Assembly: GCF_947501165.1 (NCBI RefSeq)
Contig: NZ_CANMUU010000002.1
Span: forward strand, 930,001 to 994,000
DNA length: 64,000 bases
Origin: an uncultured Allomuricauda sp.
GTDB taxonomy: Bacteria > Bacteroidota > Bacteroidia > Flavobacteriales > Flavobacteriaceae
Reading direction: 5' to 3'
The position numbers and the translations under genes were made by a program. Positions within the stretch are counted from its first letter, which is position 1. Each line of letters begins with the position of its first letter. The notes under the pieces were generated by a model. It saw only the letters and a program-made list of their open reading frames with translations, ran no database searches and was not told the DNA's origin. Shown piece by piece: positions 19,416-24,345 of this stretch.

Positions 19416-19466
19416 TTTTTGAGGGGAAACTCCCAAATAAGACAGAAAAATCATTGTTTTTGAGGG
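19416..19466 (+). repeat. Direct repeat TTTTTGAGGG, 41 bp period
   Basis: The perfect 10-mer TTTTTGAGGG occurs at 19416-19425 and 19457-19466, each followed by AAA and TCC with one-base differences. The spacing is close to four helical turns. It lies between the lipoprotein stop and the promoter of the LytTR gene. Confidence 0.5.
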
Positions 19467-19470
19467 AAAT

Positions 19471-19499
19471 CCATAGTTTTTTTAAGGTAAAAATGCAAT
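19471..19499 (+). promoter_or_regulatory. Composite upstream element, copy 1 (LytTR gene)
   Basis: CCATAG, 2 nt, TTTTTAAGGT, 5 nt, TGCAAT. The same 22 bases in the same spacing recur at 23601-23629. It ends exactly 20 nt before TAACTTGC (19520-19527), a degenerate -7 box, and occupies the place of a missing TTG -33 element. Confidence 0.55.
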
Positions 19500-19543
19500 G
19501 GGGTTTTTTTAGCCCTTAGTAACTTGCACCCAGTGTTTTACAC

Positions 19544-20278
19544 ATGGATTATACCTACACCATAATAGATTCGGACGCCAGCTCCAAGCTCCAACTTCAA
19601 GTGTACCTTGAGGAGTTTGAAGATTTTGTGTGTGCAGGTTTTGCCCAGAATTCAGTGGAGGGGTTAAATACCATCTTAAAATACTCTCCGGATGTAGTTC
19701 TGGTAAACCTGAACAATGATAGCATGTCCTATTTTCAGATGGTAACGGAACTGTCTCAATATATGAACTCGCTTCCGCTCATTATAGGATACTCCACGTC
19801 TACCAAATATGCATACAATGCTTTAAAAAGTGGTTTTTTTGACTATTGGATATTACCCCACAATGAATTTGATATCCGCAAGACCATTTTTAAGTTAAGA
19901 AAACAACACCCCAAGGAAAACTTCCCTTCCACCATTTGCCTAAAGTCTTATAATGATTACAGGTATCTGGACACTAAAGATATTCTATATCTAAAATCGG
20001 ACAACAATTCCACAGATTTCTTTTTGGCCAATGGCAATGTGGTAAGCGCGTTCAAGACTTTAAAGTCTTTTGAGGAGCAACTTCCCGAAAACTTTATCCG
20101 CATTCATCAAAGCTATATTTTGAACAGCCGGTATGTGTCTCGCATCAATTATGGTAAAAGCTTGTGTACACTCCGCAATCCCAAGGAGCAGGAAATTCCC
20201 TTTTCCAAAAAGTACAGACAGCGCATAGACCAGCTCAAGGAAAAACTATCCAAAAAGGCCGTGGGAGCGTCTAATTAA
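19544..20278 (+). CDS. LytTR-type DNA-binding regulator with degenerate receiver
   Basis: 244 residues. Residues 1-120 fold as a response-regulator receiver and 130-235 as a LytTR DNA-binding domain (YRYLDTKDILYLKSDNNSTDFFLANGN, FIRIHQSYILNSRYVSRI). The receiver keeps D9 and D11, but the phosphoacceptor position in VVLVNLNND is Asn55 and the conserved Lys of the DYxxKP motif is Leu104 (DYWILP). Normal phosphorylation is therefore unlikely. It may be constitutively active, ligand-controlled or partner-controlled. It lies upstream of a small lipoprotein and a kinase/regulator pair, and its promoter shares an element with the last gene of the cluster. Confidence 0.9.
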   Translation: MDYTYTIIDSDASSKLQLQVYLEEFEDFVCAGFAQNSVEGLNTILKYSPDVVLVNLNNDSMSYFQMVTELSQYMNSLPLIIGYSTSTKYAYNALKSGFFDYWILPHNEFDIRKTIFKLRKQHPKENFPSTICLKSYNDYRYLDTKDILYLKSDNNSTDFFLANGNVVSAFKTLKSFEEQLPENFIRIHQSYILNSRYVSRINYGKSLCTLRNPKEQEIPFSKKYRQRIDQLKEKLSKKAVGASN

Positions 20279-20421
20279 ACGAATTCTCGCAAAACAGACC
20301 CAAATACCCGTATTTCTGCGTTAAATACTAAGAGACGTTTGCCATGTCCAGCTAAAAGGGAGGTCAAAATTAAATTAGCTGCTGGAAAACTAAACTTATC
20401 TAAACATTAAACGGAAAGATT

Positions 20422-20586
20422 ATGAAAAAAGTATTTGGAATTGTAGCAGTGGCAGTATTTTCTTTAGGATTGTTCTCTTGTGAGTCAGAAACCAATGTAC
20501 AAGAAACAGAAGCCCTTTTTGAAACTTTAAAAATAGACCAGAATTCAGTTGATGGTGAGGTTAACGGAGAGGATGAAAGAGGATAG
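20422..20586 (+). CDS. Small lipoprotein, 54 residues
   Basis: ATG at 20422, TAG at 20584-20586. The lipoprotein signal MKKVFGIVAVAVFSLGLFSC is followed by an acidic 35-residue tail (ESETNVQETEALFETLKID, ending GEDERG). No repeat, Cys pair or known domain. It has its own strong terminator before the sensor kinase gene, and about 140 nt of upstream sequence. The tail contains about ten Glu/Asp and only two basic residues. It may be a signal, an accessory subunit or a target of the neighbouring kinase; none of this is shown by sequence. Confidence 0.7.
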   Translation: MKKVFGIVAVAVFSLGLFSCESETNVQETEALFETLKIDQNSVDGEVNGEDERG

Positions 20587-20650
20587 TTCAATAAAATTGA
20601 TATTCATACTCAACTAGAATAAGAAATAATTATATTTTGATTGAAGTCAT

Positions 20651-20682
20651 AACCCCAAATCTTAAAAGGTTTGGGGTTTTTT
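20651..20682 (+). terminator. Terminator after the small lipoprotein gene
   Basis: Stem AACCCCAAA (20651-20659) pairs perfectly with TTTGGGGTT (20670-20678) around a 10-nt loop and runs into a T tract. Confidence 0.85.
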
Positions 20683-20736
20683 AGTACCTTGTAGTAAAAC
20701 AACTAGGCTTTTGCCCTATTTTTCAACCAAACATCA

Positions 20737-22824
20737 TTGAAAAGAATACTGCTATTACTCTTACTATCAGTTTCTCTGGCTTGTGAGCATTCTCAAAATA
20801 ATGATTCGCAAGTAACTACTTCGTCTATAGATAAAGCCATGGAAATTGTACGTATCGCTAACGACAGTATCGAGCTATCATTGGAAGAACGGAAACAATA
20901 CCTTAAGGAAGGTTATAAAAAGTTGAAACAAGTTGATGCCGACTCCACTCGCCTTAAAAATCTTTCCAAAATATCTTTAGTTGGGTATCGGTTAAGAGAT
21001 TCGTCTTTCTTTAGAAAAGTAAACAAAGAATTGTCTGATTTGGCGCGTACAAAGAATGATTTTAAGATATTGGGGGAATCGCAATGGGATATGGCTTCTT
21101 TTTTTAGGCGTTATTTAGTGGTTGATAGTTCTTATTATTATCGCCAATTAGCCTATCAAAGTTTTAATCAACTACCTCAAGATTCGATTTCGCAATCTTT
21201 AAAAGCACGAATGCTTTATGGCATGGCATTAGCCCAAAATGATATCAAGGATTATTTGGGTGCCGAAAGCAATGTGACAAAAGCAATAAAAATATTCACC
21301 GATTTAGGTGATAATTCTAGATTGTTTGACTCCTACAATTTGATGGGCAATATCTCTAGCGGTCAAAAAAATGAAGAAAAAGCTTTAGAAATCCATCAAA
21401 AAGCAAGGACCTATCTGAAATCACTTAATAATGATAGACTTAACTGGCGTAATCAAAATAACATTGCCCTTACCTATCTAAGAAAAGAAGAGTATACTAA
21501 TGCCATAAAAAGTTATAATGAGTTATTACAGCAACCAGATTTAAGGAGTCAATATCCTGAACTTTATGGAATTGCTTTAGTAAGTCATACGTATTCCCGT
21601 TTTAAAACTGGGGAGATTGGAGAAGACTTAAACCAGAAATATCTGGATGCTATAAAAATCTATACAAGTATTGACAAAACCAAAGATATAGGTCGCGCCA
21701 AACAGTACCTTGCGGAACTTTTGGTTACTCAGGGAAAACGGGACAAAGCTATTGTACTGGCTGGGGAGGCCAACCAATTTGCTGAGGAAACCCAAAACAA
21801 TGATCGACGTTTGGAAGTACTTAAGTTCCTTACAGAAATAGATTCTGAAAATGCTGTTGCCTATTCCACTGCTTATTATGATCTTTCTGAGCGACTAAAA
21901 GAAGAAGAACGAGCCAAACGGGACAAGTTTGCGCGGGTTCGTTTAGAAACGGACCAAATTATTGAAGAAAACGAAGTGCTTTCCCGACAAAAGCAAATAT
22001 GGATTGGGGTTACCCTTGGTCTTCTTTTATTTGGAATTGCCTTGTTCACCATTATCTCGCAACGCATAAGTAACAACAGACTCAAGTTTCAACAAAAGCA
22101 ACAAGAGAGCAATCAAGAGATTTACAACCTGATGTTGGCGCAGCAAGGTAAATTTGAGGAAGGCAAAAAACTGGAACAAAAGCGTATCTCAGAAGAATTG
22201 CACGATGGTGTGCTTGGGCAAATGTTGGGTATTCGTCTAGTACTTAGTGGCCTTAACGAAATGGCGGACGAAAAATCCGTAGAACAACGCGGTGAGCTTA
22301 TTGAAAAGCTTCGCGAGACAGAGGAAGAAATCCGAACTATTTCGCATGAGCTCAATAATGCTTCTTATCAAAAAATTCATAACTTTATTGTATCCCTCGA
22401 AGATATGATTGACTCCATAGGAGCATCTTCCGGGATAAACTGTTCTTTTACTTATGATTCACTTTTGGAATGGGACAGTTTGGAGGGCGATATTAAAATC
22501 AATGCCTATCGAATCGTTCAGGAGTCTCTCCAAAACTGTGTAAAACACGCACAGTGCAAAAATGCCTCTGTAAATTTTGAATGTGAGGACAACCTCCTTA
22601 AATTGAGCATCAAAGATGACGGGCGCGGCTTTGACATTAATAAAGGAAAGCGAGGGATAGGCCTCCGAAACATTATTTCTAGAGTGAAAAAGGTAAACGG
22701 AACTTTGGATATTGAGAGTAAAAAAGGGGAAGGAACCACCATAAAGGTGAATATTCCCATGAATTACGCTAAACAAACAGAAATTCTTGAGGACCTAGGA
22801 GCTAAACAGACTGCCAAGGCATAA
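20737..22824 (+). CDS. TPR-containing sensor histidine kinase (HisKA_3), lipoprotein-like N-terminus
   Basis: 695 residues starting at TTG 20737. No ATG gives the signal peptide, and the TTG gives a perfect one (MKRILLLLLLSVSLAC). Residues about 30-380 are tetratricopeptide repeats (about six, e.g. DYLGAESNVTKAIKIFTDLGD, NNIALTYLRKEEYTNAIKSYNELL) in the periplasm. There is a membrane helix at about 421-441, then a coiled segment, a HisKA_3 dimerisation box with His489 (EELHDGVLGQMLG), and a HATPase domain with N box (QESLQNCVKHA) and G box (DDGRGFD, RGIGLRNI). It pairs with the response regulator 24 nt downstream. Such kinases sense unknown cues. Confidence 0.93.
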   Translation: MKRILLLLLLSVSLACEHSQNNDSQVTTSSIDKAMEIVRIANDSIELSLEERKQYLKEGYKKLKQVDADSTRLKNLSKISLVGYRLRDSSFFRKVNKELSDLARTKNDFKILGESQWDMASFFRRYLVVDSSYYYRQLAYQSFNQLPQDSISQSLKARMLYGMALAQNDIKDYLGAESNVTKAIKIFTDLGDNSRLFDSYNLMGNISSGQKNEEKALEIHQKARTYLKSLNNDRLNWRNQNNIALTYLRKEEYTNAIKSYNELLQQPDLRSQYPELYGIALVSHTYSRFKTGEIGEDLNQKYLDAIKIYTSIDKTKDIGRAKQYLAELLVTQGKRDKAIVLAGEANQFAEETQNNDRRLEVLKFLTEIDSENAVAYSTAYYDLSERLKEEERAKRDKFARVRLETDQIIEENEVLSRQKQIWIGVTLGLLLFGIALFTIISQRISNNRLKFQQKQQESNQEIYNLMLAQQGKFEEGKKLEQKRISEELHDGVLGQMLGIRLVLSGLNEMADEKSVEQRGELIEKLRETEEEIRTISHELNNASYQKIHNFIVSLEDMIDSIGASSGINCSFTYDSLLEWDSLEGDIKINAYRIVQESLQNCVKHAQCKNASVNFECEDNLLKLSIKDDGRGFDINKGKRGIGLRNIISRVKKVNGTLDIESKKGEGTTIKVNIPMNYAKQTEILEDLGAKQTAKA

Positions 22825-22848
22825 CCCCAAGAAACTAAAACGCATACC

Positions 22849-23517
22849 ATGAAAACACTTCGGATTTTAGCCATTGACGACCATGAAATGACCATGTTGG
22901 GTTACAAGTTTATCTTGGAACGCATTGTTTTTGAAGGACATTCCATTATTGTGGATACGGCCAACTCCTTTGAAACGGGAAAACGTATGATAGAAGAATC
23001 CGTGAATTCCTTTAAGTACGATATTCTCTTTTTGGATGTACAAATGTATCCGCCCAACGAGCATCAGCCACAAACCGGTGAGGATTTAGGAATCTTGGCC
23101 CGCAAGCTTGTTCCAGAGACCAAAATTGTTTTCATGTCTTCCTTTAGTGACAACTATAGAATAAATAGCATTTTACAATCCGTTGACCCGGATGGGTACT
23201 TGGTAAAAACGGATATTGACCCAAAGACGTTGGAAGATGCAGTAAAGACGGTCACCTTAAGTCCTCCCTATTATTCCTCAAAAGCATTGGCGGCCATTAG
23301 AAAGAAAATGACCAATGATATCAGGTTGGACGAAAAAGACAAAAAGATACTCTACCACCTTTCCATAGGTACAAAAAATAAGGATTTGGAGAAATATATT
23401 AGACTTTCCCCCTCATCCATCGAAAACAGAAAACGCCACTTGAAATCCCTTTTTGGCACGGAGAACGAGAATGACCTTGCCTTAATTTTGGCAGCCAAAA
23501 ACAGAGGATTTATCTAG
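22849..23517 (+). CDS. LuxR/NarL-family response regulator
   Basis: 222 residues. The receiver domain is intact: DDH near residue 10, phosphoacceptor Asp in ILFLDVQMYP, Ser in FMSSFSD, Lys in GYLVKTDID. The C-terminal part is a helix-turn-helix of LuxR type (LDEKDKKILYHLSIGTKNKDLEKYIRLSPSSIENRKRHLKSLF, about 160-222). An insertion after the Asp (PPNEHQPQTGEDLG) is longer than in most NarL proteins, as is common in flavobacterial partners of TPR kinases. Partner of the kinase just upstream, probably one transcript. Confidence 0.94.
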   Translation: MKTLRILAIDDHEMTMLGYKFILERIVFEGHSIIVDTANSFETGKRMIEESVNSFKYDILFLDVQMYPPNEHQPQTGEDLGILARKLVPETKIVFMSSFSDNYRINSILQSVDPDGYLVKTDIDPKTLEDAVKTVTLSPPYYSSKALAAIRKKMTNDIRLDEKDKKILYHLSIGTKNKDLEKYIRLSPSSIENRKRHLKSLFGTENENDLALILAAKNRGFI

Positions 23518-23600
23518 TGGTTTTTATGAAAGTGTTTTGATAATCTCGGAATTTTTCTTGGCTCATTGATGGGCTTTCAATGTTCAAAACACAAGAAAAC

Positions 23601-23629
23601 CCATAGAATTTTTAAGGTTTTCGTGCAAT
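23601..23629 (+). promoter_or_regulatory. Composite upstream element, copy 2 (unknown gene)
   Basis: CCATAG, 2 nt, TTTTTAAGGT, 5 nt, TGCAAT, identical in bases and spacing to 19471-19499. It ends 20 nt before TAAATTTG (23650-23657), a full -7 match, and there is no TTG at -33. The pattern is that of an activator-dependent promoter. Confidence 0.6.
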
Positions 23630-23649
23630 CCCAGAAAAAACATTCGTTT

Positions 23650-23657
23650 TAAATTTG
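23650..23657 (+). promoter_or_regulatory. -7 box of the unknown gene
   Basis: TAAATTTG, a full TAnnTTTG match. The transcript start would be near 23664, 25 nt before the ATG at 23689. Confidence 0.5.
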
Positions 23658-23688: not shown

Positions 23689-24345
23689 ATGAAACCACGT
23701 AAAAAACGGAATTCTCATTTTCCTTTGAATGATATTACAACCTTTGTGACCTGTAATGGTCTAGAGGTTTTTTTGAAGGTTTTGGAGCGCGATTTTTTTG
23801 CGGAGATTTCCGCCCAATGCAGATATAATCTTAGAAAACAGCGAATAGATATTGTTCTGGATATCTACTGTAATTTTGGATTAACGGAAAGTCTGCACCA
23901 CTTTAACAATGGAAATTGGGGAGGGATATCACCCCAAAATGAAGGATATAACATACCATCAAAATTTGATGAAAACTTTCAGAAACTTTGTGCCGATAAC
24001 AACCATGACTTGGATATCGCCGAACTTTCCATTCATTTTAAAGATACCTCGGTTATTGTAAATAGAATTCAAGATTATAGCATACCAGAAGAACTAGCGG
24101 GCATAATTTCCAAATTGAGCGAAAACTTTGTGTACTTCACCAAAGGCTTAACAGAAATGCCTTATGAAATTTTTGTGCCGGTCTTTGAAGATACAGACCA
24201 AGGTGCGATTTCGGCAGAGGGCCATAGAAACCAATATTATGACTATTGGGGCCTTTATTTTGATGATCAAATAAATCATGATGTCATGATTTATGAGGTA
24301 AAAAACAGAGAGCTTACAAAAGAAGATTTTTTCCTTTTGGACTGA
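23689..24345 (+). CDS. Hypothetical protein next to the signalling cluster
   Basis: 218 residues from the ATG at 23689 (a TTG at 23683 is possible). No signal peptide or membrane segment, so probably cytoplasmic. The N-terminus is very basic (MKPRKKRNSHF) and the rest is acidic. Aromatic-rich patches are visible (HFNNGNWGGISPQNEGYNIP, GHRNQYYDYWGLYFDDQINHD). I recognise no family. It may be a target of the shared regulator because its promoter carries the same upstream element as the LytTR gene. Convergent with glyA. Confidence 0.72.
   Translation: MKPRKKRNSHFPLNDITTFVTCNGLEVFLKVLERDFFAEISAQCRYNLRKQRIDIVLDIYCNFGLTESLHHFNNGNWGGISPQNEGYNIPSKFDENFQKLCADNNHDLDIAELSIHFKDTSVIVNRIQDYSIPEELAGIISKLSENFVYFTKGLTEMPYEIFVPVFEDTDQGAISAEGHRNQYYDYWGLYFDDQINHDVMIYEVKNRELTKEDFFLLD

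Follow-up and report, generated by a model that had tools for sequence, protein, structure and literature searches.

A putative operator at a fixed distance from the -7 box precedes a two-component signalling cluster and diverse accessory genes in Allomuricauda

Which regulatory site do the first and last genes of a signalling cluster in an uncultured Allomuricauda sp. share, and which protein reads it? The window analysed is a stretch of 64,000 nucleotides from this genome that contains the cluster (Table 1). The original prediction held that two exact copies of one element each lie 20 nt ahead of a -7 box, that chance is a poor explanation for this, and that both promoters lack a TTG at -33. 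The sequence bears out the arrangement. The pattern CCATAG-N2-TTTTTAAGGT-N5-TGCAAT occurs exactly in elements A and B, and the -7 boxes TAACTTGC and TAAATTTG each begin exactly 20 nt past their element copy. At ≤3 mismatches the two copies are the sole matches in the window, compared with 0.00 matches in 100 dinucleotide-preserving shuffles. A scan of the whole genome returned elements A and B plus one site with 2 mismatches, and the reversed pattern, used as a control, gave no match anywhere in this genome.

Table 1. Features of the signalling cluster and its two upstream elements (window coordinates)
Feature	Coordinates	Strand	Basis
Element A, putative dyad operator upstream of LytTR	19459..19499	+	Exact pattern 19471-19499; left arm from 58-site alignment; model match 19463-19525, 42.7 bits
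-7 box TAACTTGC, 20 nt past element A	19520..19527	+	Sequence; fits TAnnTTGY (motif SM5)
LytTR protein, 244 aa, degenerate receiver	19544..20278	+	Pfam LytTR 64.3 bits (cut-off 22.6)
Small lipoprotein-like gene, 54 aa, signal candidate	20422..20586	+	No Pfam family; weak sub-threshold NCBIfam PG1828 lipoprotein match
Terminator-like hairpin between lipoprotein and kinase	20651..20678	+	Stem of 12 pairs followed by a T run
TPR sensor histidine kinase, 695 aa	20737..22824	+	Pfam TPR_12, HisKA_3 and HATPase_c, all exceeding cut-offs
LuxR/NarL-type response regulator, 222 aa, predicted as likely binder of the element	22849..23517	+	Response_reg 26.7 bits (cut-off 30.2); MctR; ChrA/VraR structures
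Element B, putative dyad operator upstream of 218-aa gene	23589..23629	+	Exact pattern 23601-23629; model match 23594-23656, 45.5 bits
-7 box TAAATTTG, 20 nt past element B	23650..23657	+	Sequence
U218, 218 aa, function unassigned	23689..24345	+	Homologous loci in 45 named-genome stretches

The distance between element and box was read from 60 stretches picked by eye among the matches listed, mostly outside the cluster, together with the third site of the own genome and the window. The 75 raw pattern matches yielded 71 sites after four were dropped: two off-target matches without a box (L049 and L092) and two palindromes that were re-read on the other strand. At 70 of the 71 sites TAnnTT follows the element at a distance of exactly 20 nt, and the other offsets from 10 to 30 are each used by ≤5, so the spacing is fixed. 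A TTG within the 8 bases 17-24 nt ahead of the TA is present at just 5/71 sites, in agreement with the predicted lack of a -33 TTG.

Alignment of the sites revealed that the 22 matched bases form the right-hand portion of an inverted repeat of ~41 bp, whose left arm lies ~12 nt further upstream. The position table (73 rows) reads ATTGC-n-GAAAA-CC..AG..TTTTTAA-GG-TTTTT-n-TGCAAT. In F. psychrophilum (PMC9723704), TAnnTTGY is described as motif SM5 and a -7-type box is reported at -12 to -5. With the box placed at these positions, the dyad covers about -73 to -33 and is centred near -53. An activator on the dyad could substitute for the -33 contact, and we infer activation from the absent -33 TTG coupled with the position of the site. 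Compensatory changes among the loci from other genera described below support the symmetry of the dyad. Positions 5 and 6 are complementary in 25/29 and 18/29 LytTR sites (shuffle means 15.9 and 9.0) and in 19/27 and 14/27 U218 sites (shuffle means 13.8 and 7.5); the shuffles ignore relatedness, so these differences carry no probability.

The element recurs throughout the genus. The pattern at ≤3 mismatches is present in 67 of 71 genus genomes, and the reversed pattern gave 3 matches across all 71. A sequence-only model (R1) was built from 58 sites over 70 columns. Searched against the own genome, R1 picks out five strong sites: elements A and B, C2:168558 preceding a Ppl/TrlF-like ATPase gene (PADLOC Ppl, 1.3e-25), C1:1366071 preceding an EEP-fold gene, and C1:1490708 preceding a subtilase gene. 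Another own site, C2:1382607 (E 9e-4), overlaps ORF ends and was taken as a chance match. All 71 genus genomes contain R1 matches, with 2-12 sites each (E ≤ 1e-4; some of these sites trained R1). Across the family, R1 matches 29/299 genomes at the same threshold, 24 of the 49 with U218 and 5 of the 250 without it (the intersection was counted by hand). The element is also kept at homologous loci in named relatives, where it lies upstream of U218 in 43/45 loci (E ≤ 1e-3) and upstream of LytTR in all 41 loci that hold LytTR; a few of these species are also in the training set. The two exceptions for U218 are L157, where the match is weak (0.053), and L162, which is without upstream DNA.

Loci from other genera were scanned for a CC..GG dyad followed by the box, using the best 30 LytTR and the best 30 U218 loci; each list includes the own genome and one congener. 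L311 is cut off and was omitted from the LytTR scan, and R1 does detect its element. A dyad score ≥13 was reached in 29/29 LytTR and 26/30 U218 regions, compared with 0/30 regions upstream of LuxR, 0/29 stretches of LytTR coding DNA and 2/580 shuffles. The dyad core varies between genera (CCATAG..CTATGG, CCCCA..TGGGG and CCGTA..TACGG). R1 matches every genus genome, relatives carry the element at both cluster genes and diverged forms occur in other genera, all of which gives strong support to a regulon marked by a common site at fixed spacing. The original prediction envisaged one activator and a regulon of two genes. Its shared, fixed-spacing site stands, as neither of its two refuting conditions, random spacing to the box and lack of conservation at homologous loci, was observed, but the predicted regulon exceeds two genes and takes in diverse accessory genes.

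For each of the remaining sites, the one or two ORFs that come first downstream were taken as accessory genes; together they encode 88 proteins in 68 sequence clusters. Pfam families among them are non-specific endonuclease (3), caspase (2), subtilase, trypsin fused to an EEP nuclease, putative AbiC, Swt1-like HEPN, haem peroxidase and SMC-like ATPases; many of the proteins match no Pfam family in searches of 40 and of 82 proteins. Ten further proteins, nine from other genera and the own EEP gene product, include subtilase, trypsin plus endonuclease I, HNH, tyrosinase, AAA (Ppl-like) and M19 dipeptidase, and three of the ten have no family. No defence enrichment is apparent, with PADLOC families at 26 among 82 downstream ORFs versus 36 among 110 upstream control ORFs, and "defence-like" is a label for individual genes, not for the whole set. 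A trypsin-like protease is fused to different nucleases behind the element in two genera, to an EEP fold in L036 (4413-6275) and to endonuclease I in L323 (2775-5006). The own Ppl/TrlF-like ATPase gene behind the element adjoins a 629-aa gene that is CHAT-like by translation and has no Pfam match (L004, 2506-5325 and 5741-7627). Relaxase- and TraG-like genes, also named from translations, lie nearby and place this site on a mobile-looking island.

The accessory genes also have a common leader. YCCCC is found ≤60 nt past the box in 53/67 sites (shuffle mean 5.95, maximum 16), 17 of the 67 coming from one hotspot and not being independent. The motif occurs in 0/29 LytTR and 1/30 U218 promoters. 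Several sites from other genera have it too, and L331, from another genus, has the L071 leader type. The first ~40 nt past the -7 box are alike in leaders of unrelated accessory genes, for example L071, L038 and L331. RNAalifold predicted 0 pairs in both 16-sequence leader alignments.

One upstream flank is common to 17 sites in 14 genomes, and the same 17 sites plus L040 form a single downstream group by single linkage. The genes between these conserved flanks differ among genomes, and L043 is nearly empty, with the downstream flank starting ≤185 nt past the box. The own hemL-like ORF (named from its translation) has matches in 11/14 hotspot loci and in L040. L056, where a related subtilase is encoded, is colinear with the own C1:1490708 site. 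Two units stand in tandem in L035, L045 and L061, and every unit has an element of its own. The hotspot, which includes L312 (own genome, C1:1484000-1496000), has hemL-like and DUF748 flanks. Many accessory genes sit in this one chromosomal hotspot, whose genes get exchanged. The idea that hotspot sites follow mobilisation genes proved wrong: DUF748 is the commonest upstream family (14/110 control ORFs), and only the own C2 site is near relaxase- or TraG-like genes.

The complete set of genes for LytTR, the small lipoprotein, the TPR kinase, LuxR and U218 is seen in 41/45 named loci; L119, L146, L153 and L162 end too early to show the whole cluster. The kinase and LuxR genes are adjacent in the named loci, and LuxR is the best conserved cluster protein (64-99%). 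No Pfam GerE match was detected in the LuxR protein at E ≤ 0.1. Its similarity to NCBIfam MctR and to VraR is full-length, although the MctR match is below the cut-off (53.3 bits over residues 4-209), and its closest solved structures are ChrA and VraR, also DevR. Residues D10, D11, D63 and K120, which we take to be the acidic pair, the phospho-Asp and the Lys of the receiver, are invariant in 12 homologues. The LytTR receiver is degenerate. Asn55, presumably at the phospho-site, is present in 10/11 homologues where the phospho-Asp is expected. Over its TPR part the kinase gives a weak match to NCBIfam FimS (E 2e-4). U218 has no Pfam or NCBIfam match, and its AlphaFold model (pLDDT 71.7) has no PDB match at E ≤ 0.001. 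Element A may drive LytTR and the lipoprotein alone because a terminator-like hairpin follows the lipoprotein gene. Such hairpins are no commoner in the region than in shuffles (5 versus a mean of 4.3), and a similar one follows the lipoprotein in 30/41 loci by a count without shuffle control. Rfam returned nothing at gathering score in 14 loci and, in the window, a single sub-threshold rimP match at 20620-20723 (30.4 bits, cut-off 47) that overlaps the hairpin.

The dyad, its fixed spacing, its conservation and the identities of the downstream genes are established at the level of sequence; the binder, phosphotransfer, activation and biological role we infer. The best explanation, to which we assign a probability of roughly 0.6, is that a two-component system uses the element as its operator. 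In this view, the TPR histidine kinase would phosphorylate the LuxR/NarL-type regulator, which would bind the ~41-bp dyad as a symmetric dimer or a pair of dimers and would activate promoters that have a -7 box and no -33 TTG. Predicted targets are LytTR and the small lipoprotein through element A, U218 through element B, and variable effector- or defence-like accessory genes behind copies of the same promoter. The original prediction had named either LuxR or LytTR as the regulator. LuxR is favoured because it is the best conserved cluster protein, because the site is symmetric and the LuxR receiver is intact whereas that of LytTR is degenerate, and because genome G205 retains the element at U218 without a LytTR orthologue. 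The best LytTR match in G205 is 2e-20, compared with 1e-84 or better in other U218 genomes. LuxR (55%) and U218 are present, the kinase is 355 aa long without a TPR part, and no lipoprotein was found in the cluster region. The sole R1 match in G205 at E ≤ 0.01 precedes U218, with a spacer of 19 nt rather than 20. This one genome acts as a natural deletion and favours an element that does not depend on LytTR. Points against the LuxR explanation are the undetected Pfam GerE domain, R1 matches in just 24 of the 49 U218 genomes and in 5 of the 250 others, the 19-nt spacer of G205, and the direct repeats described next.

The main rival, a real but improbable alternative, is that LytTR binds the element and controls its own gene as well as U218 and the accessory genes, with LuxR acting elsewhere or jointly. 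LytTR proteins bind direct repeats 21-22 bp apart. One result points towards LytTR. LytTR promoters were read from 20 of the 35 genomes that have a LytTR homologue and lack U218, and a 22-bp direct repeat is their strongest signal (z 9.6), with a dyad score of 13 reached in just 9/20. The kinase and LuxR genes were confirmed beside LytTR for G232, where an R1 match lies immediately upstream of LytTR. At these LytTR promoters (L332-L351), CCnnA recurs as a direct repeat with 22-bp spacing. Period-22 direct repeats are also detected, more weakly, in LytTR promoters of the U218 type (z 4.0) and in the accessory-gene sites (z 6.7), and LytTR is present in 48/49 U218 genomes. Against LytTR stand G205, the degenerate LytTR receiver and the U218-type sets, in which the inverted-repeat signal exceeds the direct-repeat signal. 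It looks as if evolution had turned a direct-repeat operator into an inverted-repeat one.

An unlinked regulator or an alternative sigma factor that reads the element, with the cluster merely one of its targets, is distinctly unlikely. Box A does fit SM5 and not the main consensus of PMC9723704, and R1 matches occur in a few genomes that lack U218, but the matches concentrate in U218 genomes, and an ordinary -7 box with a 41-bp dyad ahead of it does not constitute a sigma-factor site. That the element is a transcription terminator or RNA hairpin is very improbable and was rejected: it has A-tract and T-tract flanks and 5/6 tested copies fold as RNA better than shuffles (z -2.02 to -4.17), but copy A folds like shuffles (z -0.71), the inner stem is mostly unpaired within the genus (4/69 paired at position 6), and the copies sit upstream of promoters at a base-exact distance to the -7 box.

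The small lipoprotein is a possible peptide signal for the system. It is present in 41/41 named loci with LytTR, and its signal sequence and acidic tail are conserved. In L301 the acidic tail unit occurs five times, possibly an assembly artefact. The position of the gene, the signal sequence and the co-loss with the TPR part in G205 match the expectation for the small exported precursor of a peptide-pheromone quorum-sensing circuit, with its sensing by the kinase a prediction. The joint loss of the lipoprotein and the kinase TPR part in this one genome fits a ligand-sensor pair. A fuller version is speculative and rather doubtful: a Flavobacteriaceae lipoprotein-peptide circuit in which the periplasmic TPR part of the kinase would sense the lipoprotein, and LuxR would then induce the signal gene (with LytTR), U218 and an exchangeable nuclease, protease and defence-like arsenal through one operator, a common promoter and a C-rich leader. 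If such a circuit existed, a gene captured behind the operator promoter would be regulated at once.

A search of the literature by title and abstract, with most subscription papers outside its reach, found no work on the cluster or the element. The data suggest that one sensor system switches on exchangeable accessory genes. Little is known of how Bacteroidota regulate accessory effectors and defence-like functions. An operator recognisable across the genus and in other genera would allow accessory genes to be listed from the promoter alone and would point to new effectors among the genes without a family. The arming signal becomes testable, as the two-component system has a clear candidate sensor. 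The hotspot would be a natural example of a chromosomal promoter serving as a docking place for exchanged genes.

The cluster resembles NarL/FixJ systems such as VraSR and DevR. A kinase with HisKA_3 and HATPase domains that pass the Pfam cut-offs lies beside a regulator with a receiver and a putative HTH; D63, D10/D11 and K120 would supply the phospho-Asp, acidic pair and Lys of a receiver that is sub-threshold for Pfam Response_reg; and a putative symmetric operator lies upstream of the core promoter. The differences are the Bacteroidota -7 box, the LytTR and small lipoprotein genes within the cluster, the operator copies ahead of many unrelated accessory genes, and the undetected Pfam GerE domain. 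The weak FimS match over the kinase TPR part recalls FimS-FimR of Porphyromonas, in which FimR is the partner of FimS. LytTR regulators such as AgrA and BtsR share the LytTR domain and, at LytTR in genomes without U218, the period-22 direct repeats. Unlike them, the receiver here lacks the expected Asp, the element is mainly an inverted repeat, and in the one genome G205 element B persists without LytTR. The hotspot resembles an integron-like platform, with a conserved promoter and leader followed by genes that differ among 14 genomes, of which one is almost empty at this place, a likeness that rests on gene exchange between conserved flanks. It differs from such a platform in its tandem units that each have their own element (L035, L045 and L061) and in a promoter that belongs with a sensor cluster located at another place in the genome.
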